Source: Stomatobaculum longum (GTDB lineage: Bacteria; Bacillota; Clostridia; Lachnospirales; Lachnospiraceae). From it: 19,503 bases of DNA. Shown one piece after another: positions 4,521-18,629 of this stretch. The translations under genes and the position numbers were made by a program. The stretch is taken from positions 1-19,503 of the forward strand of contig CAJPKN010000019.1 of NCBI GenBank assembly GCA_905370385.1, written 5' to 3'. Under the pieces are notes generated by a model. The model was not told where the DNA came from and did not search any database. It was given only the letters and a program-made list of their open reading frames with translations. Position 1 is the first letter of the stretch. Each line of letters begins with the position of its first letter.

Positions 4521-4616
4521 CGGTAACGAAGGGAAAAGCAAAACGCTTGCAATCAACATCAATCGCAAAACAAAGACGTAACCGTAGGGTGAGTCGTGCG
4601 CGAAGGGAGAGGAAAG

Positions 4617-5828
4617 ATGACAGAGGCAATTTCTGACTGCAATCCGCGGGAACTTAGTTTCAAGGCGCGCGTTCTTTCCTGCGAGGAGAGGAGAACGGCG
4701 GCGGGAGAAAGCCGCTTCGCTGTAGTCTTGGACCGCACGGCTTTTTTTCCGGAGCAGGGCGGTCAGAAGGCAGATCGCGGCACACTCGGCGGTGCAAGCC
4801 TTCTCGACGCGGAGATAAACGAGGGCGTGATTGTCCATATTTTGGATGCCCCATTGGAAGCGGGAAGCGAGGTCGAGGGGGAAGTGGATTGGCCGCGCCG
4901 CTTTGACTTTATGCAGCAGCACACGGGAGAGCACATTCTGTCCGGACTTGCCAATCGCCTCTACGGCGCGGAGAACGTGGGCTTTCATCTCAGTGAGCGG
5001 GAAGTGCAGTTGGATTTCAGCGTGCAGCTCTCGGAAGCGGAACTTGAGGCACTGGAACACGCGGCGAATGAGGCTATTTTCCGCGATATTCCGGTGAAGG
5101 CTTATTACCCGAATGCCGAGGAACTGGCGGCGCTGAACTACCGGCAGAAAAAAGAGCTCACGGGGGCCATACGCATTGTCGAGCTTGAGGGCGTGGATTG
5201 CTGTGCCTGCTGTGCACCCCATGTCGCGCGGAGTTCGGAGGTGGGGATTCTCAAGATTCTGAGCGCCATGAACTATAAGGGCGGCATGCGGCTCTACATT
5301 GCCTGCGGAATGCGCGCGGTGCAAGATTACGCGGCGCGGATACAGGAGGCGCAACAGCTGTCGAAACTGCTCTCCGCACCGCAGGGCGAACTGAGCGCTG
5401 CGGTAGTACGTGTGCAAGAAAAGGCAATGGCCGCGGAGCAGCGCGCGGCAGAGACGGCGCTTGCCCTGATTCTTGCGCGGGCGGAAGCGGAAATCCGTGA
5501 GAAGGCACAAATGCATGAACCGCCGAAAGCGGAAGAGGATGGGCTCTGCCTCATCTTACCGCTGCTCCCGGAGAGCGCCCTCCAGCGCGCGGTGAAGCCG
5601 TTGAAGGAGCTGTTTTCCGGTGTGGTTGCGCTTTTTTCGGGCGACGACGAGAGCGGCTATGCCTTTCTCATGTTCGGAGACGGCATGGATTGGAAGCCCT
5701 TTCTCGCGGAGCTCCGAACGCGCGGCGGCAAGGGCGGCGGCGGAAAAGACCGCGTGCAGGGTAGACTGCTTTGTCGCGCAAAAGAATTACATACAATATT
5801 TCATGATTTTGTAATAAAACAGAATTGA
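4617..5828 (+). CDS. AlaX-like trans-editing protein (alanyl-tRNA editing plus DHHA1 domain)
   Basis: This protein resembles the C-terminal half of alanyl-tRNA synthetase without the catalytic core. Such stand-alone AlaX proteins hydrolyse Ser- or Gly-tRNA(Ala), preventing mistranslation. An N-terminal beta-barrel (about 15-95) with FFPEQGGQ leads into the editing domain. The zinc ligands are visible: HTGEH (His102, His106) and C-x3-H (Cys198, His202), the latter inside a Cys-rich CCACC stretch. A coiled region (about 240-300) leads to a DHHA1-type domain with the Gly-rich motif GGKGGGGKDR near 370-379. I chose ATG 4617 (403 aa) over GTG 4596 because GGGAGAGG (4605-4612) sits correctly for it. 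The dacF promoter probably lies in the AT-rich 3' end of this gene or just after it; TACAAT at 5792-5797 is a weak candidate. Confidence 0.85.
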   Translation: MTEAISDCNPRELSFKARVLSCEERRTAAGESRFAVVLDRTAFFPEQGGQKADRGTLGGASLLDAEINEGVIVHILDAPLEAGSEVEGEVDWPRRFDFMQQHTGEHILSGLANRLYGAENVGFHLSEREVQLDFSVQLSEAELEALEHAANEAIFRDIPVKAYYPNAEELAALNYRQKKELTGAIRIVELEGVDCCACCAPHVARSSEVGILKILSAMNYKGGMRLYIACGMRAVQDYAARIQEAQQLSKLLSAPQGELSAAVVRVQEKAMAAEQRAAETALALILARAEAEIREKAQMHEPPKAEEDGLCLILPLLPESALQRAVKPLKELFSGVVALFSGDDESGYAFLMFGDGMDWKPFLAELRTRGGKGGGGKDRVQGRLLCRAKELHTIFHDFVIKQN

Positions 5829-5901: not shown

Positions 5902-7407
5902 ATGCCGGAGGGAATCAAACGCTTGCGGGCCGGTCTGCTGGCTCTGGTCGTGCTGTTGTTCAGCACTGCGGCGGCGGGGAGCGCCAAGGCGGCCAACGCA
6001 CCGGAAATTGCTTCTGAGGGCGCTGTGCTCTACAACGCGACCAGCGGGAAGTTCTTGTATGAGAAGAATGCAAACCACCAGTACTATCCCGCTTCCATCA
6101 CCAAGTTCATGACGGCACTTCTGGTATTGGAGAATGCGTCACAGGATGACACTGTGGTGTTCTCGAGCGCAGCGACGGAGAATCTGGAATCCGGCGCCGT
6201 CAATTTGGAAGTGGCAAAGGGAGATCGCATTAAGGTGCGCGATTGTCTCTACGGGCTCATGCTGAAATCCGCGAACGAAGTCGCAAACGGGCTCGCCGAG
6301 CACGTCTCGGGTTCCGTTCCTTCGTTTGCGAAGAAGATGAATCGACGCGCACAGGAGCTTGGCTGCACCAACACGAATTTCGTGAATCCGAGCGGGCTCA
6401 ACAGCGCAAAGCATCTCTCGACACCCCATGACATGGCATTGATTGCGAAGGCTTGCTTTGATCGCGCGGATTTTCGCGCCATCGATAGAACGGTGTCCTA
6501 TCATTTCCCGGCGACGCAGAAACGCCCGAACGGCACGGATATCGTCATGGGACATCGCATGATTTCGAGCGGGAATGCAGACTACTATCCGGGAATTCTG
6601 GGCGGTAAGACCGGTTATACGAGTGCTGCGGGTAATACGCTTGTGACCTGCGCAGAGCGAAACGGCGTGCGCCTCATTGTTGTGGTCATGAAGAGTCGCA
6701 AGACCCAGTACTCGGATACGCGAGCTCTCCTTGACTACGGTTTTCAGCTCGCGGAGGAAAGCGGCGGAAAAAAACCGGAAGCCGTGGGCGGGGAAACGGA
6801 GATGCCACAGGCAAGCGGCAGAGTTCAGGCGCACACGGCAAACAGTCCGACAGAAAACCTGCAAGCAGCAAATCAAGCAAGTCCGGCGGAAAATCCGCAA
6901 GCGGCAAATCAACAAAATCAAGCGGAAAGTCAGCAAAGTCAGGCGGGAAGTCTGCAAGCGCTAAAGCCGGCGGGCAGTCAAAGTCGAATCGTAAGTCAAC
7001 GAAATCGGGCGGTAAGTCAACAAAATCAAGCGGCAAGTCAACAAAATCAGGCGGGAAGTCAACAAAGTCAGGCGGCAAATCCGGCGGCAAGCGGAAGTAG
7101 CTGGATTCAGCGAAACGGCGTTTGGGCCTACCGCGAGGCAAACGGTGCGCTGGTCCGCAACGCACGCCGTGAGATTAACGGCAAGCAGTACTGGTTTGAT
7201 GAAAACGGCAATATGCTTGAGGGCTGGCGGCAGGACGGAAGCGGTGCCTGGTACTATTTGACGCCGGGACAAGGCGCGCTTCAGACGAACTCTTGGCTGC
7301 TCTACAAGAATCAGTGGTATTATCTGGGTAGCGACGGCAAAATGCTCACAGACAGCAGAACGCCGGACGGTTATCTGGTCAATAAGGAGGGCATCTGGAT
7401 TGGATAA
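5902..7407 (+). CDS. D-alanyl-D-alanine carboxypeptidase (S11) with C-terminal cell-wall-binding repeats
   Basis: An exported low-molecular-mass penicillin-binding protein of the DacA/DacF type that trims the terminal D-Ala of peptidoglycan pentapeptides. A signal peptide (about 1-31, ending SAKA-AN) precedes the S11 domain. Catalytic motifs are SITK (65-68, nucleophile Ser65), SAN (123-125) and KTG (236-238). A Gln/Ser/Ala linker (about 300-397) leads to aromatic-Gly cell-wall-binding repeats (about 400-500; GVWAY, GKQYWF, GAWYYL, QWYYL). I chose ATG 5902 (501 aa), with GGGAGG at 5887-5892, over GTG 5833 because it places the signal peptide at the N-terminus. The linker DNA encodes a much more regular product in the -1 frame, reachable from an A7 heptamer at 6768-6774; see the separate entries. 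The stop overlaps the next gene by 8 bp. Confidence 0.92.
   Translation: MPEGIKRLRAGLLALVVLLFSTAAAGSAKAANAPEIASEGAVLYNATSGKFLYEKNANHQYYPASITKFMTALLVLENASQDDTVVFSSAATENLESGAVNLEVAKGDRIKVRDCLYGLMLKSANEVANGLAEHVSGSVPSFAKKMNRRAQELGCTNTNFVNPSGLNSAKHLSTPHDMALIAKACFDRADFRAIDRTVSYHFPATQKRPNGTDIVMGHRMISSGNADYYPGILGGKTGYTSAAGNTLVTCAERNGVRLIVVVMKSRKTQYSDTRALLDYGFQLAEESGGKKPEAVGGETEMPQASGRVQAHTANSPTENLQAANQASPAENPQAANQQNQAESQQSQAGSLQALKPAGSQSRIVSQRNRAVSQQNQAASQQNQAGSQQSQAANPAASGSSWIQRNGVWAYREANGALVRNARREINGKQYWFDENGNMLEGWRQDGSGAWYYLTPGQGALQTNSWLLYKNQWYYLGSDGKMLTDSRTPDGYLVNKEGIWIG
6753..6812 (+). promoter_or_regulatory. Candidate programmed -1 frameshift signal in the carboxypeptidase gene
   Basis: The heptamer A-AAA-AAA (6768-6774) is in the correct phase for -1 slippage, because the zero-frame codons are GGA AAA AAA CCG. 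An SD-like GGAGG (6753-6757) lies 10 nt upstream. A stem can form 6 nt downstream: GCCGTGG (6781-6787) pairs with CCAC-A-GGC (6805-6812), seven pairs with a bulged A. This three-part arrangement matches the known dnaX frameshift cassette of E. coli. Transcriptional slippage on the A7 tract would give the same products. Function is inferred from layout; the site was not chosen by any computed score. Confidence 0.55.
6774..7100 (+). other. -1 frame extension: Lys/Ser/Thr/Gly-rich alternative C-terminus
   Basis: Read from the last A of the slippery heptamer in the -1 frame, the DNA is open for 108 codons and stops at TAG (7098-7100). The frame has no start codon of its own, so ORF searches miss it. 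It encodes a basic tail built on the heptapeptide KSTKSGG/KSTKSSG and ends in KRK just where the wall-binding domain begins in frame 0. A shifted product would be 399 aa: signal peptide, S11 domain (to residue 291) and basic tail, with no wall-binding repeats. In the four aligned 21-nt units at 6993-7076, four of the five variable columns are third codon positions in this frame, and these are amino-acid-changing in frame 0. This suggests selection has acted on the -1 reading. Confidence 0.55.
6870..7097 (+). repeat. Imperfect 21-nt tandem repeats in the carboxypeptidase linker
   Basis: The clearest run is four 21-nt units at 6993-7013, 7014-7034, 7035-7055 and 7056-7076, with the pattern AAGTCAACRAARTCR followed by two Ser/Gly codons. 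Less regular copies lie upstream from 6870. Frame 0 reads SQQNQAA-like units; frame -1 reads KSTKSGG. Repeat number could change by recombination without breaking either frame, since the unit is a multiple of three. Confidence 0.85.
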
Positions 7408-8269
7408 GAAGAAACTTCTCTTCTCGTTCAGCCTGGCGGCGGTCGGCATTGCGGCTGCCGCCCTTTTTGAATCGGAGCGGGAGCGGCGCAGTTTGATTGT
7501 GCGACACTATGCGCTCCGAAGTGCGAAGATCAAGCGGGCAAGGCGCATTGTATATCTCTCGGACTTTCACGAGCGTCGGCTCGGTGATATCGAGGAGCGA
7601 CTGCATCTGGAGACAAAGCGCCTGAAGCCCGATTACATTTTCCTCGGCGGAGATATGGTGACCGCAAAGCACGGCGCTTCCATCGAGGCGACCCTGGCAC
7701 TCACCGAGCGCCTGGTAAAGCTGGCGCCGGTTTTCTACGGCGAAGGCAATCACGAGGCAAGACTGGACCGCGACCGCGGTCGCTACGGAAATCTCTTCGA
7801 TGAATTACAGGCGGGACTGGAATCGCAAGGGGTGCGCTATCTGAGCGATGAGACGGTGCTGCTCGGCGAGGATCTTGCGCTCTCCGGACTGCACATCACC
7901 GAGAACTATTATAAAAGAGCGCCGCACGACGAGATGGAGGTCGACTACCTCCGCGCACATTTGGGTGAGGCAAATGCGGAGCGCTTTCAGCTCTTATTTG
8001 CGCACAGTCCGGCCTTTTTTAATGCCTATGCGCGCTGGGGGGCGGACCTTAGCTTATCGGGACATTGGCACGGCGGAACCGTACGCTTGCCCGGTAACAT
8101 AGGCCTCATGACACCGCAGGCGGAGTTTTTCCGGCGACCGGCAAGCGGGCTCTTTTTCCGCGGGCGGCACGCAATGCTCCTCAGTCCCGGCATCGGAACA
8201 CACAGCATTAACCTGCGCTTTTTGAATCTGCCGGAGCTCATGGTACTGGATCTCAAAGAAGGAGTTTAA
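7400..8269 (+). CDS. Membrane-anchored metallophosphoesterase (YaeI/YkuE-like)
   Basis: A 289-aa calcineurin-type phosphoesterase with an N-terminal membrane anchor (about 6-22). The dinuclear metal motifs are complete: DFH (Asp55, His57), GGD (Asp85), GNHE (Asn117, His118), His202 and GHWHG (His222, His224). Related proteins act on phosphodiester or pyrophosphate bonds of lipid-linked or cell-wall substrates, but the substrate here is unknown. The start is TTG at 7400, eight bases inside the end of the carboxypeptidase gene, served by AGGAGG at 7385-7390. This implies coupling to ribosomes finishing the long, wall-binding form of the upstream enzyme; frameshifted ribosomes would stop about 300 nt earlier. 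scpA starts 1 nt after the stop, so all three genes are probably one operon. Confidence 0.85.
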   Translation: MDKKKLLFSFSLAAVGIAAAALFESERERRSLIVRHYALRSAKIKRARRIVYLSDFHERRLGDIEERLHLETKRLKPDYIFLGGDMVTAKHGASIEATLALTERLVKLAPVFYGEGNHEARLDRDRGRYGNLFDELQAGLESQGVRYLSDETVLLGEDLALSGLHITENYYKRAPHDEMEVDYLRAHLGEANAERFQLLFAHSPAFFNAYARWGADLSLSGHWHGGTVRLPGNIGLMTPQAEFFRRPASGLFFRGRHAMLLSPGIGTHSINLRFLNLPELMVLDLKEGV

Positions 8270-11809: not shown

Positions 11810-11847
11810 AGGCGGCGACATGATTGTCACACAGGGAGGATACTATT

Positions 11848-12294
11848 ATGAAGAAGAGACAGTTTGGAGCAATTTTGGCGGCAGCAGCGCTTGCAGCGGT
11901 TCTGGCAACCGGTTGCGGCAGCAAGAAGGAAGAGACCAAGGCAGCATCCGATGTTGCTTCCGAGGCGGTTGACGCAGCTTCCAGCATGGTGGAGAGCGCA
12001 AACGCAGCGGCTTCCAGCGGTGTGGAAGAGGCAAACAAGGCAGCTTCCGGCGCGATGGAAGAGGCAAACAAGGCAGCTTCCGACGCAGCGAAGATGGGTG
12101 AGGACGCAGCTTCCGCAGCAGTGGAGGGCGCAAACAAGGCAGCTTCCGATGCGGCTAAGATGGGTGAGGATGCAGCTAAGGCAGGCGCAGAGGCAGCTGA
12201 TAAGGCAGGCCAGGCAGCTGAGAAGGCAGGCGCAGCGGCTGAGAGCGCAGGTGCGGCAGCTGATAAGGCTGGCGAGACTGCTGAGTCCAGATAA
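11848..12294 (+). CDS. Small Ala-rich lipoprotein with 11-residue helical repeats
   Basis: The 148-aa product has a lipoprotein signal ending LATGC (lipidated Cys23). The mature part is almost all Ala, Lys, Glu, Gly, Ser and Asp, with no Trp, Tyr, Phe or further Cys. It shows 11-residue periodicity, for example EEANKAASGAM, EEANKAASDAA, KMGEDAASAAV, EGANKAASDAA and KMGEDAAKAGA. Such 11-mers form amphipathic helices, as in LEA and apolipoprotein-like proteins; this protein's function is unknown. It may act as a spacer or envelope-associated helix. ATG 11848 follows GGGAGGA (11834-11840); a TTG at 11824 would hide the signal peptide. It lies between two near-identical terminators, so it can be made as a separate short transcript. 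The Ala-rich segment of the next lipoprotein has a similar composition and period. Confidence 0.85.
   Translation: MKKRQFGAILAAAALAAVLATGCGSKKEETKAASDVASEAVDAASSMVESANAAASSGVEEANKAASGAMEEANKAASDAAKMGEDAASAAVEGANKAASDAAKMGEDAAKAGAEAADKAGQAAEKAGAAAESAGAAADKAGETAESR
12025..12148 (+). repeat. 33-nt coding repeats in the Ala-rich lipoprotein gene
   Basis: The core GCAAACAAGGCAGCTTCCG occurs at 12031-12049, 12064-12082 and 12130-12148, offset by 33 and 66 nt, that is one and two units of 11 codons. GATGGGTGAGGA also repeats at 12093 and 12159. The near-identity at DNA level points to recent duplication inside the gene. Confidence 0.85.
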
Positions 12295-12315
12295 GTAATC
12301 ATTTGCTGAAAAGCC

Positions 12316-12346
12316 AGAGGCTCTCCGAAAGGACGAGCCTCTTTTT
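12316..12346 (+). terminator. Intrinsic terminator after the Ala-rich lipoprotein gene
   Basis: AGAGGCTC (12316-12323) pairs with GAGCCTCT (12335-12342). An inner TCC/GGA stem closes a GAAA tetraloop, with C12334 bulged, followed by TTTT. It matches the riboswitch terminator except for a paired change in the inner stem (TCC/GGA versus TCT/AGA). Readthrough would be needed to reach the following genes unless they have their own promoter, which I do not clearly see. Confidence 0.88.
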
Positions 12347-12390
12347 ATTGGAGTCAGAGGATTGAATCAAACAGAGAAAGAGGGTATTGT

Positions 12391-13026
12391 ATGAAGAAGA
12401 GAGTATACTCGTTTGCATTGGGAATGGGGCTTTTGGCCGCGGTTTCGATGACGGCTTGCGGCGGCAAGAAGGCGGAGAGTCAGGCTTCGTCGGCCGTGGA
12501 GACCGCAAGTTCGGCTGTTGAGAGCGCAGCATCCGCGGCATCTTCCGCGGGCGAGAGCGCGGCATCTGCGGCTTCCTCCGCGGCAGAGAGCGCGGCTTCC
12601 GAAGGGGCCAAGGCGATTGCGGACTTTAAGGCGGCCGATTTTAAGGCGACGGACGAGCTTCAGGCACAGGCGGATGCAGCGGCACAGATGCTTGCGGACA
12701 AGTACGAGAAGCTGAGTCTTGCGGACGGTGTCTACGAGGTCAATGTAACGCTTGCGGGCGGCAGCGGCAGAGCAAAGATTGCAAGTCCGACCGAGCTCAC
12801 GGTGAAGGACGGCAGAGCAACGGCAAAGATTGTCTGGAGCAGTGACAAGTACGACTACATGGAAGTGGATGGCATCCGTTTTACGCCGAATATCGAAAAC
12901 GGCCATTCGGTCTTTGTGATTCCGGTCACCGTGCTCGGCGCGCCGCAAAGTGTTGTCGGCGATACGACCGCGATGAGTAAACCGCATGCAATCGATTATC
13001 AGCTTACCTTCGAAGTGGTGGAATAA
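12391..13026 (+). CDS. Lipoprotein with Ala-rich stalk and C-terminal NEAT-like domain
   Basis: A 211-aa surface lipoprotein with lipobox MTAC (Cys23). Residues about 33-75 form an Ala/Ser stalk with 11-residue units (SSAVESAASAA, SSAGESAASAA). The C-terminal domain (109-211) is beta-rich: LADGVYEVNVTL, ELTVKDGRATAKIVW, YDYMEVDG, FVIPV, then DTTAMSKPHAIDYQLTF. The order DGxY, VKDG, IPV and a final H-x-x-Y strand resembles the heme-binding NEAT family but does not fit it exactly, so I call it NEAT-like only. The same plan appears in the N-terminal domain of the substrate-binding lipoprotein encoded at 14376. Corrinoid or tetrapyrrole capture is inferred from the riboswitch and neighbours. The ribosome site is GAGGG near 12380, and the chelatase gene follows after 42 nt. 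Confidence 0.75.
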   Translation: MKKRVYSFALGMGLLAAVSMTACGGKKAESQASSAVETASSAVESAASAASSAGESAASAASSAAESAASEGAKAIADFKAADFKATDELQAQADAAAQMLADKYEKLSLADGVYEVNVTLAGGSGRAKIASPTELTVKDGRATAKIVWSSDKYDYMEVDGIRFTPNIENGHSVFVIPVTVLGAPQSVVGDTTAMSKPHAIDYQLTFEVVE

Positions 13027-13068
13027 GTTACAAAATCAGTCGCTATCAAAGAAAAGCAGGAGGGTGTT

Positions 13069-14352
13069 ATGAGAAAGGTAAAGTTGGCGGTTTTGGTTCT
13101 GGGTGCTGCGCTGGCTGTGAGTGCTTGCGGCGGAAAGGACAAGGGTAAGGAGACCATCGCGACGGAGTCGCAGCAGGAAACCGTTGCGACAGAGGCGACC
13201 GAGCCCACGACGCTCGCGCCGGCAACGGATGAAGAGAAAGCGCAGGCGGCGGAAGTCGGCAAGAAGATTGATGCAATCTACGTGCAGAATTGGAGCGAGG
13301 ACACGGAGCGGCTCTGCAAAGAGGCAAAGGAGGCTTGGGACGCATTGAGCGACAGTGCAAAGGCAGAGGTGAGCGGCGAGCACGCTTCACCGGAATATTT
13401 CGGTCTGGACACCGGAGATGTGAGCAAGGATGACCCGAGAAATCAGGACGAGATCGGTGAGAAGGAAATCCTGGTTGTGAGCTTCGGCACCTCTTATAAC
13501 GACAGCCGCGCAAAGGATATCGGCGGCATTGAGGGTTACCTTGCAAAGGAATTCCCGGACTACAGCGTGCGCCGTGCGTTTACCTCGCAGATTATTTTGA
13601 ATCACATTCTGGCTCGTGACGGTGAGAAGATTGACAATGTGGAGCAGGCGCTGGAGCGTGCCAAGAAGAACGGTGTGAAGGAACTCATTGTGCAGCCCAC
13701 ACATCTCATGAAGGGCAAGGAGTACGATGAGCTCAAGGAGACGCTCGACAAGCACAAAGCTTCTTTTGAGAAGCTGGAACTCGCGGAGCCGCTGCTCGGT
13801 GAGGTCGGCAAGGACGCCGAGGATGTGAATGCGGACAAGGAGAGAGTTGCGAATATCATTGTGCAGGCAGCTGTCACGGGCGGGGGCTTCGACAGTGTAC
13901 AAAAGGCCGCGCAGGACGGCGTTGCTTTTGTATTCCTTGGCCACGGCACTTCGCACACCGCAGCTATCAGCTATTCCGAGATGCAGAGCGCAATGAAGAA
14001 GCTCGGCTATGCAAACGTGTTTATCGGCACCGTAGAGGGCGAGCCGGAAGAGACCGCTGTCGGAGCAGTCATCGATGCGGTGAAGAAGGGCGGCTATAAG
14101 AAGGTCACGATTCGTCCGATGATGGTCGTTGCCGGCGATCACGCACACAACGACATGGCGGGTGCGGAGGATGATTCCTGGGTACAGCAGTTCTTGAATG
14201 CGAAGAGTTTTGATCGCATCGAGACGCAGATTGAGGGCTTGGGCGGTGTTTACGACATCCAGAAGCTCTATGCGGAGCATACACAGGCAGCCGTCAACGC
14301 GGCAAATACGGCGGCAGAAGAGACAACGGCGGCAGAGACCAAGGCAAATTGA
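13069..14352 (+). CDS. cbiK: Lipid-anchored CbiK-type sirohydrochlorin cobaltochelatase homologue
   Basis: A 427-aa lipoprotein with lipobox AVSAC (Cys20), an acidic linker and N-terminal extension (about 21-130), then a CbiK-like chelatase domain (about 131-400). It opens with EILVVSFGTSYNDSR, contains IVQPTHLMKGKEYD, and keeps both catalytic histidine regions: GHGTSH (291-296) and GDHAHND (356-362). CbiK inserts cobalt into sirohydrochlorin in anaerobic B12 synthesis and is normally cytoplasmic; an exported CbiK is known in Desulfovibrio and binds heme. Here the lipobox predicts action outside the membrane, next to an uptake system and downstream of a cobalamin riboswitch. It could insert or remove metal in a scavenged tetrapyrrole, or just bind metal or tetrapyrrole. 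The ribosome site is AGGAGGG (13058-13064). No other B12 synthesis gene is in the window. Confidence 0.85.
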   Translation: MRKVKLAVLVLGAALAVSACGGKDKGKETIATESQQETVATEATEPTTLAPATDEEKAQAAEVGKKIDAIYVQNWSEDTERLCKEAKEAWDALSDSAKAEVSGEHASPEYFGLDTGDVSKDDPRNQDEIGEKEILVVSFGTSYNDSRAKDIGGIEGYLAKEFPDYSVRRAFTSQIILNHILARDGEKIDNVEQALERAKKNGVKELIVQPTHLMKGKEYDELKETLDKHKASFEKLELAEPLLGEVGKDAEDVNADKERVANIIVQAAVTGGGFDSVQKAAQDGVAFVFLGHGTSHTAAISYSEMQSAMKKLGYANVFIGTVEGEPEETAVGAVIDAVKKGGYKKVTIRPMMVVAGDHAHNDMAGAEDDSWVQQFLNAKSFDRIETQIEGLGGVYDIQKLYAEHTQAAVNAANTAAEETTAAETKAN

Positions 14353-14375
14353 GTGTCTGCGCCCGGAGAGGGAAG

Positions 14376-15971
14376 ATGAAGAGACGAGGCAGATGGATTT
14401 CGCAACTTGCGTTCCTACTGACGGCGGTATTACTGACAACGGGCTGTGCCGCAGGGAGCGGGAAGGCAGAGCAAAGCGGAGCTCAGGAGACGACGAGCGC
14501 AGCAGAGAGCGGCGCTTCGGAGAGCGGCAAGGCACAGGCAGCACTGCCGGACGGTATATACACGGCGCGCTTTGAGACCGACAGCTCCATGTTCCATGTG
14601 AACGAGGCGCTGAACGACAGGGGAACTCTGATCGTAAAAGACGGGAAGATGACCCTTCATGTCACTCTGCAGTCAAAGCGCATCCTCAATCTCTTCCCCG
14701 GGACCGCGGAAGATGCGCGGAAAGAAGGAGCGGCGCTGTTGCAGCCGACAACCGATACCGTCAAGTATGAGGACGGTACAAGCGCTGAGGTCTACGGCTT
14801 CGATATTCCGGTCCCGGCGCTCGACACAGAGTTTCCGCTTGCCCTCGTCGGCACCAAGGGGGCCTGGTATGACCATATGGTCAAGGTGACAGATGTAAAA
14901 GCTGAAGAGGCAAGTCAGGCGGCAGCTCCGGAGATTCCGGGGCTGCGCTTTGTTAAGCGAATGGAACTGCGCTATGCGGAGACCTTTGACATCTATTTTT
15001 ACGAGCAGGACTTCGCCGTCATCGACGTGCACGGCGCGGCACGCTATCTGTTGGTTCCGGAAGGGGAACAAGTCCCGGCGGAGCTGCCCGCAGACTATGT
15101 GATTCTGAAAAAGCCGCTCGACAATATTTACCTTGCTGCCACCGCAGCGATGAGTCTCTTTGAAGCAAACGGTGCGTTGGACCGCGTGCGCTTTACCGGT
15201 ACGAGAGCGGAGGGATGGCATATCGACGCGCCGAAGCGTGCGCTTGAAAGCGGGGCAATGCGCTTTGCCGGAAAATACAGCGCGCCGGATTACGAACTCC
15301 TCACTTCGGAGGGCTGTGATCTGGCTATTGAATCGCTCATGATATTGCATGCGCCGGAAGTGAAGGAGATGTTTGAGCGACTCGGGATTCCCGTCTTTGT
15401 GGATTACTCGAGTAACGAAGGACATCCGCTCGGGCGCACCGAGTGGGTGCGGCTTTACGGCGTTTTGACCGACAGGAGCGAAGCGGCGGATGCTTTTTTC
15501 AAGGCCCAGTGCGATGAACTGGACGGGCTCAAAAACGTAGCGGATAGCGGCAAGAAGGTGGCATTTTTCGCTATGAATCGGGACGGAAGCTTTGTGGTGC
15601 GTCGCCGCACGGACTATGTGCCGAAGATGATAGCTCTGGCAGGCGGAACGTATCTTGGTGTCGGACCGGATGAACCCGGGCGCAGTTCCGTGCAGCGCGT
15701 CTCGCGCGAGGCTTTTTTTGAGGCGGCGAGAGATGCGGATGTGCTTGTATACAATGCAACGGTGGAAGCGCCGCTTGCCGGCCTTTCGGAGTTGCTCGAG
15801 AAGGATGAGCTCTTCTCGGACTTTAAGGCGGTGCGGGAGAAACAGGTCTATCAACTCGGAAGTGACATGTACCAGTCAGCCGATGCGGTCGCGGGACTGA
15901 CACGTGATTTTTCACGCGTCTTGCACGGGGAAGAGGAGCTCGGGCTCTCCTACCTGAGGAGGATAGAATGA
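14376..15971 (+). CDS. ABC transporter substrate-binding lipoprotein with extra N-terminal NEAT-like domain
   Basis: A 531-aa lipoprotein (lipobox LTTGC, Cys24). After a Ser/Gly/Ala linker comes a beta-rich domain (about 57-173): LPDGIYTARF, SSMFHVNEALNDRGTL, IVKDGKMTLHV, VYGFDIPVPAL, then WYDHMVKV. Its DGxY, VKDG, IPV and late His order parallels the lipoprotein encoded at 12391. Residues about 195-531 form a class III periplasmic-binding fold (Peripla_BP_2, like BtuF/FhuD), with an ADYVIL strand and the late VYQLGSDMYQS segment. This would deliver a corrinoid, heme or siderophore to the permease; the riboswitch favours a corrinoid. I chose ATG 14376, with GGAGAGGGAAG upstream, over TTG 14349, which overlaps the chelatase stop. 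The permease ATG overlaps this stop by 4 bp (ATGA). Confidence 0.85.
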   Translation: MKRRGRWISQLAFLLTAVLLTTGCAAGSGKAEQSGAQETTSAAESGASESGKAQAALPDGIYTARFETDSSMFHVNEALNDRGTLIVKDGKMTLHVTLQSKRILNLFPGTAEDARKEGAALLQPTTDTVKYEDGTSAEVYGFDIPVPALDTEFPLALVGTKGAWYDHMVKVTDVKAEEASQAAAPEIPGLRFVKRMELRYAETFDIYFYEQDFAVIDVHGAARYLLVPEGEQVPAELPADYVILKKPLDNIYLAATAAMSLFEANGALDRVRFTGTRAEGWHIDAPKRALESGAMRFAGKYSAPDYELLTSEGCDLAIESLMILHAPEVKEMFERLGIPVFVDYSSNEGHPLGRTEWVRLYGVLTDRSEAADAFFKAQCDELDGLKNVADSGKKVAFFAMNRDGSFVVRRRTDYVPKMIALAGGTYLGVGPDEPGRSSVQRVSREAFFEAARDADVLVYNATVEAPLAGLSELLEKDELFSDFKAVREKQVYQLGSDMYQSADAVAGLTRDFSRVLHGEEELGLSYLRRIE

Positions 15972-16978
15972 GGACGGGGGGAAAGCGTACGGCATCGGTA
16001 TTCCTTCTGCTTACCGTATTGCTCCTGCTTCTTTTTTACTGTAATTTGGCGCTTGGGACCAGGTTTTTCTCTCCGGCAAAGCTGTTCTCCCTGCTGTCAC
16101 AGGGGAGAGGCAACGATCCCGCGGTGAGTATCTTATTCAAGATACGCTTGCCTCGCGCCCTGATGGCACTGCTCCTCGGCGGAGCGCTTGCGGTCTCGGG
16201 CTTTCTCTTGCAGACCTATTTTGCGAACCCCATTGCCGGTCCCTTTGTGCTCGGTGTCTCCTCGGGCGCGCGTCTTGCGGTGGCGCTCTGCATGATGCTG
16301 TTCATGGCACAGAACCGGGCACTCAGTTCCTTTGCGCTGGTGTTCGCTGCCTTTCTGGGTTCGCTGGTATCTCTCGGCATCTTGCTCGCGGTATCGCAGC
16401 GTGTGCGGCAGATGGCCGGACTTCTGGTGGCCGGTATCATGATAGGTTATATCTGCTCGGCCGCGACCGATTTTCTCTTGAGTTTTGCCGCGGATTCGGA
16501 GATTGTGTCCCTGCACAGCTGGTCACAGGGCAGTTTTTCCGGCATGAGCCTGGCACAGGTCAGGACAGCGGCCGTCTTAATCGGGATCTCGGCCTTCGCG
16601 CTTCTTTTTCTCGCAAAGCCGCTCGCTGCGGTGCAGCTCGGCGAGAGCTATGCGGAGAGCCTCGGGGTGAATGTGCGGCGCATGCGCAGCGCCCTCATTA
16701 TCCTTGCGAGTTTGCTTGCGGCGACCGTGACCGCTTTTGCGGGGCCGGTTTCCTTTGTGGGGGTGGCTTCGCCGTTTTTGATTCAGAGTCTACTGAAGAG
16801 CAACAAGCCGTTGCTGGTGCTGCCGGCTTCCTTCCTCGGGGGAGCGGTATTTTGTTTGGCCTCGGATTTAATCGCAAGGACGGCCTTTCAGCCGACCGAG
16901 CTTGCGCTCAGCACGGTGACCTCCTTTTTCGGCGCTCCGATTGTACTTTGGCTCTTGGTGAAGCGGCGGGGAAAATGA
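15968..16978 (+). CDS. btuC: FecCD/BtuC-family ABC permease
   Basis: A 336-aa polytopic membrane protein of the type II importer family, which forms a homodimeric channel for vitamin B12, heme or siderophores. Family landmarks are RLPR (60-63), GGALAVSGFLLQTYFANPIAG, VLGVSSGARL (94-103), and the late PTELALSTVTSFFGAPIVLWLL. The usual FVGL-x-VPH-x-x-R loop that contacts the ATPase reads GPVSFVGVASPFLIQ (259-273), so the conserved His and Arg are missing; the coupling interface may have co-evolved with the unusual ATPase encoded at 17520. The ATG overlaps the upstream stop by 4 bp. The btuC name rests on the riboswitch context. Confidence 0.85.
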   Translation: MRTGGKRTASVFLLLTVLLLLLFYCNLALGTRFFSPAKLFSLLSQGRGNDPAVSILFKIRLPRALMALLLGGALAVSGFLLQTYFANPIAGPFVLGVSSGARLAVALCMMLFMAQNRALSSFALVFAAFLGSLVSLGILLAVSQRVRQMAGLLVAGIMIGYICSAATDFLLSFAADSEIVSLHSWSQGSFSGMSLAQVRTAAVLIGISAFALLFLAKPLAAVQLGESYAESLGVNVRRMRSALIILASLLAATVTAFAGPVSFVGVASPFLIQSLLKSNKPLLVLPASFLGGAVFCLASDLIARTAFQPTELALSTVTSFFGAPIVLWLLVKRRGK

Positions 16979-17023
16979 GACAGTGCCATCCAATCAGAGA
17001 TTCGGATCATACACGGAGGGAAT

Positions 17024-17416
17024 ATGTCGGTCACAAGCTTTTTACATTTGAGCGAAACAGTCGGCGAATTTGACCTCAAAACGTTCTGTGAGGAGATTCA
17101 GAAAAAATATCCGGGAACGGATACGGAACAGAGGCAAAGCAAGTCTTTGGCCTACGATATTTCTTGGAGCCGATATGCGGATTGCCCACAGTTTGAATTA
17201 AGGCTCGATCGAACACGCCGCACGTTCGCGGTGGAGTATTTCAATTCAGAGGATAGAATTCGGGATTACGCCAATTTGCTTCTATGGATCAGGCAGTACT
17301 TTCCGAAGGAACAAGAAGTGGTTTTGGTAGATGAAAACAATGAGGCGCCTCTGCCGCTTTCCTCGGAGACAGCGACAGAGGATATCGAAGCATGGATCTT
17401 GAGAGTCGGTATCTAA
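17024..17416 (+). CDS. Hypothetical protein, 130 aa, between permease and ATPase genes
   Basis: I do not recognise this protein. It has no signal peptide or membrane segment and looks cytoplasmic and globular. Visible features are an acidic, aromatic middle (ISWSRYADCPQFELRLD), FAVEYFNSEDRIRDYANLLLWIRQYFP, and an acidic C-terminus. Its codons are visibly more A/T-ending than those of the flanking transporter genes. It sits between btuC and btuD, where those genes are usually adjacent, and a strong promoter follows it, so it may be a later insertion. The ribosome site GGAGGG (17015-17020) is close to the ATG. Small acidic proteins of this look are sometimes immunity proteins, but nothing here proves that. 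Confidence 0.65.
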   Translation: MSVTSFLHLSETVGEFDLKTFCEEIQKKYPGTDTEQRQSKSLAYDISWSRYADCPQFELRLDRTRRTFAVEYFNSEDRIRDYANLLLWIRQYFPKEQEVVLVDENNEAPLPLSSETATEDIEAWILRVGI

Positions 17417-17419
17417 ACG

Positions 17420-17447
17420 TTGACAGATCGTAAACCGTCAATATAGT
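17420..17447 (+). promoter_or_regulatory. Strong SigA promoter of the ATPase gene
   Basis: A perfect TTGACA (17420-17425) is followed after 16 nt by TATAGT (17442-17447). TTGAC (17420-17424) and GTCAA (17437-17441) form an inverted repeat spanning the -35 and spacer, which may be an operator. The ATPase would then be transcribed with a leader of about 65 nt, separately from the riboswitch. Confidence 0.7.
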
Positions 17448-17519
17448 TTGTATACAAATGGACGCGATAGCGCCGCGGCGCCTTGTCAAGCAGAGGGCGT
17501 ATCGAGAGGAGGAGGGGCT

Positions 17520-18629
17520 ATGCGGAATACGCAGCGGGCAAAACTCGCGGCAGAAGGGGTCAAAACGGGGTACGGCGCGCGCGTGGTGCTCTCGGAAGTC
17601 GCATTTGAACTTCGCCCGGGCGAGGTCATGGCCTTGCTCGGGCCGAACGGGGCCGGGAAGTCGACCCTCTTAAAGAGTGCAGCGGGGCAGCTTGCCCTGC
17701 AGGGCGGTAGCATCTACCTGGAAGGCAAAGATTTAAGGGCCTATTCCGGCCGGGAACGTGCGGCATGTATGGCGCTCCTCTTTACCGAGCGCAGGGAGCC
17801 GGAGTTTGCCACCGCGCGCGAAGTGGTGGAGGCGGGGCGCTATCCCTACACGGGGCGTTTCGGAACCTTGCGGGAACCGGATCATAAAGCAGTGGCGCGT
17901 GCCATGTCCTATGTGCGGACCGAGGAACTTCAGGAACGTCCCTTTTCGGAGTTAAGCGACGGCCAGCGTCAGCGCGTGCTGCTCGCGCGGGCGCTCGCGC
18001 AGGAACCGCGACTCATTCTGCTCGATGAACCGACGGCCTTTTTGGATCTGCGCCATAAGATAGAGCTTCTGAGTCTGCTGCGAAATCTTGCGACCCGCGA
18101 AGGGCTCGCGGTCTTTTTATCGCTCCATGAGCCGGATTTGGCGCTGAAGTGCGCGGACCGCGTCTTACTGGTAGCGGACGGCAAGGTGCTGCCGCCCGCT
18201 GCGCCGGAAGAGGCGCTCTCCGAGGATAATATGCGGCGCATTTACGGACTCGGTTCCGCTTACGACGCGCTGTCCGGCAGCGCAGAGTTGCCGCAGGCTT
18301 CGGAAAATACCGTGCCGAGCACTCTGGTGCTCGGCGGCGGCGGGAGCGGCATACCCGTTTACCGGCGGCTTCGGCGCGAGGGTATATCTTTTGCGGCGGG
18401 CATATTCAGCCCCGCGGATTCGGATTATCCGGTTGCGGCTCGGCTTGCCGCAAAGGTCTTTGAGACAGCGCCTTACGAAGCGCTCACGGCGGAGAAGCTA
18501 CGGGAAGCGAGAGCCTTCCTTGAAGCGGCAGAGCGTGTCATTTGGACCGAACCGCCGATCGGGAGCGGCAATGCGGCTCTTCTTGAACTGCGGGCGCAGG
18601 CGGAAGAGAAGGGGATATTGGAGCGGTAA
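17520..18629 (+). CDS. btuD: BtuD/FecE-type ABC ATPase with C-terminal Rossmann-like domain
   Basis: The 369-aa product has a standard importer ATPase (about 8-240): Walker A GPNGAGKST (41-49), signature LSDGQ (145-149), Walker B LILLDE (165-170) and switch His203 in SLHEPD. It should power the FecCD permease. Importer ATPases of this family usually end near 255 aa; here about 110 more residues follow (about 260-369), starting STLVLGGGGSGIPVYRRL and including ADSDYPVAARLA and VIWTEPPIGSGN. The Gly-rich loop after a hydrophobic strand suggests a nucleotide- or cofactor-binding alpha/beta fold. I cannot name it; it does not look like CbiZ. ATG 17520 is preceded by GAGGAGGGG, and a longer TTG start at 17448 overlaps the promoter. 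Confidence 0.88.
   Translation: MRNTQRAKLAAEGVKTGYGARVVLSEVAFELRPGEVMALLGPNGAGKSTLLKSAAGQLALQGGSIYLEGKDLRAYSGRERAACMALLFTERREPEFATAREVVEAGRYPYTGRFGTLREPDHKAVARAMSYVRTEELQERPFSELSDGQRQRVLLARALAQEPRLILLDEPTAFLDLRHKIELLSLLRNLATREGLAVFLSLHEPDLALKCADRVLLVADGKVLPPAAPEEALSEDNMRRIYGLGSAYDALSGSAELPQASENTVPSTLVLGGGGSGIPVYRRLRREGISFAAGIFSPADSDYPVAARLAAKVFETAPYEALTAEKLREARAFLEAAERVIWTEPPIGSGNAALLELRAQAEEKGILER

Follow-up and report, generated by a model that had tools for sequence, protein, structure and literature searches.

A carboxypeptidase gene with an overlapping −1 frame

The gene at 5902–7407 of the window (the whole 19,503-nt stretch of DNA that was analysed) runs on the + strand from ATG 5902 to TAA 7405–7407 and encodes, in frame 0, a 501-aa protein composed of a signal peptide (predicted, by eye), a Peptidase_S11 domain, a Q/N/A/S-rich linker, and choline-binding-type repeats. 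The Peptidase_S11 domain covers residues 29–265 (5986–6696, + strand; Pfam E 5.1e-53, score 180.4 bits, curated cut-off 27.6), and the nearest solved chain is 3mfd_A, the D-alanyl-D-alanine carboxypeptidase dacB (E 2e-40). SITK (65–68), SAN (123–125), and KTG (236–238) all lie N-terminal to the candidate shift site described below, and the catalytic motif residues are invariant across 10 aligned sequences; we assigned their roles on the assumption that SxxK, SxN, and KTG are the motif definition of Peptidase_S11 D-alanyl-D-alanine carboxypeptidases. The repeat region occupies residues about 401–500 (7102–7401, + strand), with Pfam matches at 424–465 and 460–499; PF19127, PF19085, and PF01473 score above the Pfam cut-off, choline binding itself being predicted, and repeats of this type have many matches within the genus. 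The gene product is a predicted D,D-carboxypeptidase with choline-binding-type repeats. It has its catalytic domain in common with Peptidase_S11 enzymes such as dacB (3mfd) and differs from them at the C-terminus, which is formed by the repeats or, after a shift, would be formed by a basic tail. Peptidase_S11 carboxypeptidases usually carry a C-terminal domain and a membrane anchor; Pfam matched neither in the 501-aa protein. By eye, the next gene (7400–8269) has a TTG start at 7400 within the end of the carboxypeptidase gene, with AAGGAGG at 7384–7390, and may be translationally coupled to frame 0.

Between the catalytic domain and the repeats, the same DNA is open in a second frame. The heptamer A_AAA_AAA (6768–6774, + strand) is read GGA AAA AAA CCG in frame 0, placing it in the slippery −1 phase claimed by the initial annotation. 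From ACC 6774–6776, the −1 frame is open for 108 codons to TAG 7098–7100 (6774–7100, + strand), overlapping residues 292–400 of the frame-0 linker (6775–7101, + strand) and encoding a basic, K/S/G-rich tail, TGSRGRG...KSTKSGGKSGGKRK. A shifted product would have 399 aa (291 + 108 residues), so that the ORF and the −1 stop bear out the 501-aa and 399-aa sizes given earlier.

The arrangement recurs in close relatives. We compared seven genomes of the genus (loci L001–L007), the nearest of which, G001 (2.15 Mb), shares 37% of the window's sampled 31-mers. Its locus, L001, is 95% identical, keeps A7 and its phase, and has a tail of 121 codons that ends KSGGKRK, as in the window. L002 (genome G006), 75% identical, also keeps A7 and the phase, with an open basic tail of 96 codons and a different end; it lies in record JH590864.1, 'Lachnospiraceae bacterium ACC2', a strain that we take to be Stomatobaculum longum, an oral species. 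The initial annotation had the tail stop precisely before the wall-binding domain, which is right for the window and L001 and wrong for L002, where the tail continues beyond it. At L003–L007, the linker contains neither A7 nor A6G in slippery phase, and each locus has one to four −1 stops. Because two of the seven genomes have the arrangement and the other five are without it, the tail belongs to one lineage, in which it would have been gained rather than lost elsewhere. Indels in G001 need care, since its dnaX (L243, C1:1968567-1969676) is interrupted by a frame change when compared with that of G006 (370 vs 555 aa open), likely an assembly error in G001.

Clade DNA could be read for three sequences (window, L001, and L002), the other relatives being proteins. 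About 100 close relatives in frame 0 were listed by a protein search. Of 121 proteins, 104 continue through KK in frame 0, with P0105 and P0109 dropping out of that frame further along the linker; a single one is locked in the tail frame, and the remaining 16 either are distant or lack the anchor. P0094 resembles a recombinant, window-like up to the TANS motif and L002-like after it. Genome contigs gave no match to a single-sequence search and 80 loci to an alignment search, among whose parseable genes only L054, which has the L002 sequence, carries A7 at this place. No relative was found in viral contigs, and phage records yielded 79 catalytic-domain matches, at <60% identity. An isolated sequencing error in the window's A tract, a concern raised at the outset, is unlikely because L001 and L002 carry the identical A7 and the frame-0 linker is entered through KK in 104 of the 121 proteins retrieved.

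Elements of the candidate shift cassette

Upstream of the heptamer lies a Shine-Dalgarno-like GGAGG (6753–6757, + strand) with a 10-nt spacer, exactly where the initial annotation placed it. L001 has GGAGG at the same place and L002 has GGGAG, although the codons there differ. We called 1811 ORFs in G001 by a simple procedure and found 182 in-phase A6R sites, 165 of them remaining once those ≤40 nt from the ORF start were set aside. GGAGG with a 10-nt spacer occurs at one of the 165, which is this gene, and at three when spacers of 8–14 nt are allowed. The anti-Shine-Dalgarno sequence CCTCC is present at five 16S 3' ends of G001.

Folding gave no support for the bulged 7-bp stem proposed downstream: the first 50 nt beyond the heptamer show no advantage over shuffled sequence (z −0.73, equalled by 45 of 200 shuffles), and longer pieces reach z −1.76 (window, 91 nt) and −1.81 (L002, 58 nt). 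By eye, the only recurring pairing is 4–5 bp of CCGU/ACGG, a possible weak hairpin of 6782–6785 with 6796–6799 whose folding is not significant. The stretch directly after the heptamer (6775–6799, + strand) differs at one base among the window, L001, and L002, and the downstream sequences of the three are near-identical and without covariation signal.

Synonymous change is also rare here. In the stretch that starts immediately ahead of the heptamer and ends at the TANS motif, synonymous differences affect 2 of 22 conserved codons between the window and L002 (p 3e-4; 46% in the rest) and 1 of 22 for L001 against L002 (p 7e-5; 43% in the rest). The lowest 25-codon synonymous windows of the gene fall at codons 282–333 and 282–342 in these two comparisons. 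For the close pair of window and L001, the minimum lies elsewhere (codons 33–62), and the whole linker is low (5/98; p 4e-4).

Constraint on the linker in two frames

Position 2 of a frame-0 codon is position 3 of a −1 codon, so we scored linker variants for their effect in the −1 frame. The set comprised the window and P0002–P0092 passing two anchor motifs (90/91), 91 proteins in all, with single-sequence variants and residues 1–30 omitted and multi-base variants (6 in the linker, 2 and 3 in the flanks, with the window as reference) scored neither silent nor changing. With window DNA as context, 34 of 41 single-base linker variants are −1-silent, where 38% is expected, and none makes a −1 stop; in the flanks, 8/18 and 4/9 are −1-silent. 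With L001 DNA as context, the figures are 35/40 for the linker and 9/18 and 3/10 for the flanks. By codon position (1/2/3), the variants number 4/37/2 in the linker, 6/10/3 in the catalytic part, and 5/4/1 in the C-terminal part. The exchanges seen in frame 0 are Ala/Val/Glu/Gly, Gln/Pro/Leu/Arg, and Asn/Ser; the −1 frame remains K, S, and G. The same bias appears within the window, where four 21-nt units (6993–7076) vary at five columns, four of them on −1 codon position 3, confirming the earlier observation that these columns are mostly silent in that frame.

Comparison of DNA points the same way. Between the window and L001, substitutions at positions 1/2/3 number 1/9/8 in the linker and 17/8/59 in the rest of the gene (MAFFT; p 7e-4, position 3 vs 2). 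Ranked by position-2 share against G001, the top four of 274 segments (109 codons each, 17 genes) lie in this linker; the highest reaches 48%, with 6/13/8 in a tblastn alignment, and the difference between this count and the 1/9/8 from MAFFT reflects the uncertain alignment of the repetitive linker. The other gene with segments among the top is that at 4596–5828 (codons about 205–350; e.g. 6/10/9), perhaps a sign of weak constraint.

At the protein level, the −1 tail of the window aligns with that of L002 at 65% (z 10.6) and the frame-0 linker at 56% (z 8.0); between L001 and L002, the values are 64% (z 12.0) and 60% (z 9.9). For the window and L001, the frame-0 linker (z 32.8) is slightly above the −1 tail (z 30.9). 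Variants within the L002 clade alone are −1-silent in 3 of 6 cases, and a frame-0-guided, gap-rich alignment of L002 gave no −1-silent excess in the linker (17/62 vs 29/89 in the catalytic part). Taken as a whole, these patterns are strong evidence of constraint on the linker DNA from two sense frames that overlap, with the new frame apparently under purifying selection. The clade of the window, L001, and L002 does not show conservation of frame 0 alone with stops in the −1 frame, because the two closest genomes keep the heptamer, its phase, and the open basic tail, and linker variation is mostly −1-silent.

The openness of the −1 frame could instead be the by-product of a repetitive, weakly constrained linker whose second frame is unused. 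Long open −1 frames are indeed common: at 14 of the 182 in-phase G001 sites, the −1 frame stays open for ≥96 codons; L001's 121 rank eighth among them, some longer ones entering a following gene; and synonymous recoding of the linker keeps the −1 frame open in 8–9% (window), 5% (L001), and 12% (L002) of draws. Open length by itself is therefore weak evidence and not beyond chance. The second D,D-carboxypeptidases of G001 and G006 (L035 and L036) carry A7 in phase as well (at DTKKLLDFG), and their −1 frame soon reaches a stop, which shows that in-phase heptamers occur without a tail. Against an unused frame, a free linker should vary everywhere, but the variants fall at the −1-silent base, and synonymous change is suppressed. 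The tail's charge and composition, moreover, lie outside all open recodings: net charge is +28 (window), +30 (L001), and +26 (L002), where open synonymous recodings reach at most +16, +14, and +18, and K/S/G/T/A make up 93 of 108 tail residues, where 20000 recodings average 52 and reach 68. Tail composition and conservation exceed chance, and we regard the by-product reading as highly improbable. The tail has no Pfam match, and among 7988 candidates scored in a search with the tail part of P0102, the locked protein, P0102 alone was returned. In G001, 60-residue windows that are basic and K/S/G/T/A/R-rich occur in four frame-0 ORFs, and none matches the tail in sequence.

Constraint could also come from the other strand, as a minus-strand ORF at 6686–7165 shares the wobble base, and 27 of the 39 unambiguous variants leave its translation unchanged. 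That share, however, matches the expectation from codon position (26.8), whereas the −1 sense frame has 34 silent variants against 28.1 expected. The antisense ORF has a stop in both L001 and L002, which refutes it there as a long ORF, and residue 311, which marks the antisense stop, is Leu in 90 of the 91 proteins and His in the window alone; the probability left to an antisense gene is close to nil. The +1 frame was likewise rejected, with 3 and 7 linker stops and 7 and 5 more added by variants (window and L001 as reference).

Entry into the tail and its likely meaning

The −1 open stretches of the window and L001 contain no ATG, GTG, TTG, CTG, or ATT, making internal initiation unlikely and a shift or slippage the expected route into the tail. 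The case is weaker for L002, whose −1 frame has a CTG upstream of the heptamer and two GTG codons close to the tail end. Programmed −1 ribosomal frameshifting at A_AAA_AAA, giving a second, basic-tailed product from a linker constrained in both frames, is quite probably what these sequences reflect.

Transcriptional slippage, in which RNA polymerase adds one A (or drops two) at A7, would give the same tail product. A7 is a homopolymer, the −1 selection results fit slippage equally well, and the accessible part of PMC3711429 describes dnaX as relying on slippage or on ribosomal shifting, depending on the bacterium. The slippage sites reported there usually have eight or more As or Ts, however, and all three clade members keep exactly A7 as well as GGAGG or GGGAG at the same spacer. 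Slippage is thus unlikely, and we favour ribosomal frameshifting over it as the reading of the cassette. Three proteins read GGKKTEA, compatible with one A more. If instead tract length differed among cells or strains, each cell would make one end only. P0102 (783-kb contig) is a natural allele of this kind: it reads GGK straight into the tail, most simply through A5, and ends KSGGKRK, supplying a fourth open −1 sequence; its strain may live with the tail form, unless this is an assembly error. This one locked protein nevertheless stands against 104 that read KK into frame 0, a rough ratio in that proteins stand for clusters, and the tail search found no second one. A7 is also short for a contingency tract, so phase variation appears very unlikely.

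Under ribosomal frameshifting, a ribosome reaching A_AAA_AAA (6768–6774) would let tRNA-Lys re-pair one base back on AAA AAA, with GGAGG pairing to the 16S anti-Shine-Dalgarno sequence during the slip. The shifted product, presumably the minority form, would exchange the choline-binding-type repeats for the 108-residue basic K/S/G tail. Both products would be exported, and both should be active because the catalytic domain is complete before the shift. The frame-0 form would be held by its repeats and the shifted form, as a guess, by its charge on anionic wall polymers. The next gene could be tuned by the shift as well, since shifted ribosomes would stop ~300 nt before TTG 7400, which overlaps the frame-0 stop.

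We lean, a little less firmly, toward a broader interpretation in which one Lachnospiraceae lineage has overprinted ~100 codons, so that a neutral Q/N-rich linker and a polycationic wall-homing tail share the same DNA, with the unannotated frame under the tighter constraint there, and the ratio of two differently targeted peptidoglycan enzymes would be set by a dnaX-like ribosomal switch. Standard annotation would hide such a conserved second end of a cell-wall enzyme. If true, this is a case of overprinting with population-scale variation open to study, and a testable way for ribosomes to split one hydrolase between two cell-surface places.

The dnaX-like design put forward initially stands in its slippery site and Shine-Dalgarno-like element, with no support for its stem (z −0.73); the site, moreover, is A_AAA_AAA and not A_AAA_AAG. 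The dnaX spacer is likewise 10 nt. Unlike dnaX, which stops one codon after the shift, the gene has a conserved ~100-codon tail, lacks a supported stem, and encodes an unrelated, predicted secreted enzyme. From the accessible text of two sources, E. coli dnaX resembles the present gene in its A-rich −1-phase heptamer with an upstream Shine-Dalgarno-like element and in its two proteins with a common N-terminal part (PMC5009743, PMC3711429). In E. coli, A_AAA_AAA is much less shift-prone than A_AAA_AAG according to the part of PMC5009743 available, while an A7 cassette of another gene gives 10% shifting there (PMC3711429, in its available part). G001, in a further difference from dnaX, has tRNA-Lys genes with both anticodons, which, to judge from the same portion of PMC5009743, would blunt slipping on AAG and not on AAA.

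Other chromosomal genes offer partial likenesses. E. coli copA and carboxysome cso2 also use −1 frameshifting to reach an alternative C-terminal end; they differ in that the short copA product has 70 aa, and no long dual-coded tail or wall enzyme is described for either in the accessible part of PMC5009743. The fs-genes of magnesium chelatase have poly-A cassettes, among them the one with 7 As that shifts 10% in E. coli (PMC3711429, in part). Their shift fuses two consecutive ORFs, whereas here one intact ORF would be left for an overlapping one. −1 frameshifting with a Shine-Dalgarno-like stimulator is already known (PMC5009743 and PMC4066793, in their available parts); the novelty lies in the gene family and in a dual-coded tail that is long and conserved. 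A literature search combining frameshifting with D-alanyl-D-alanine carboxypeptidase, peptidoglycan, or Stomatobaculum, whose scope took in few subscription papers, found no such report. To our knowledge, bacterial −1 frameshifting outside mobile elements and phages comprises few cases, ending soon after the shift or fusing ORFs, and we know of no peptidoglycan enzyme retargeted in this way; this would be the first.

Elsewhere in the window, a cobalamin riboswitch (RF00174, 11500–11673, 82.7 bits) precedes ORFs at 11824–18629 that by eye resemble lipoproteins and an ABC uptake system.
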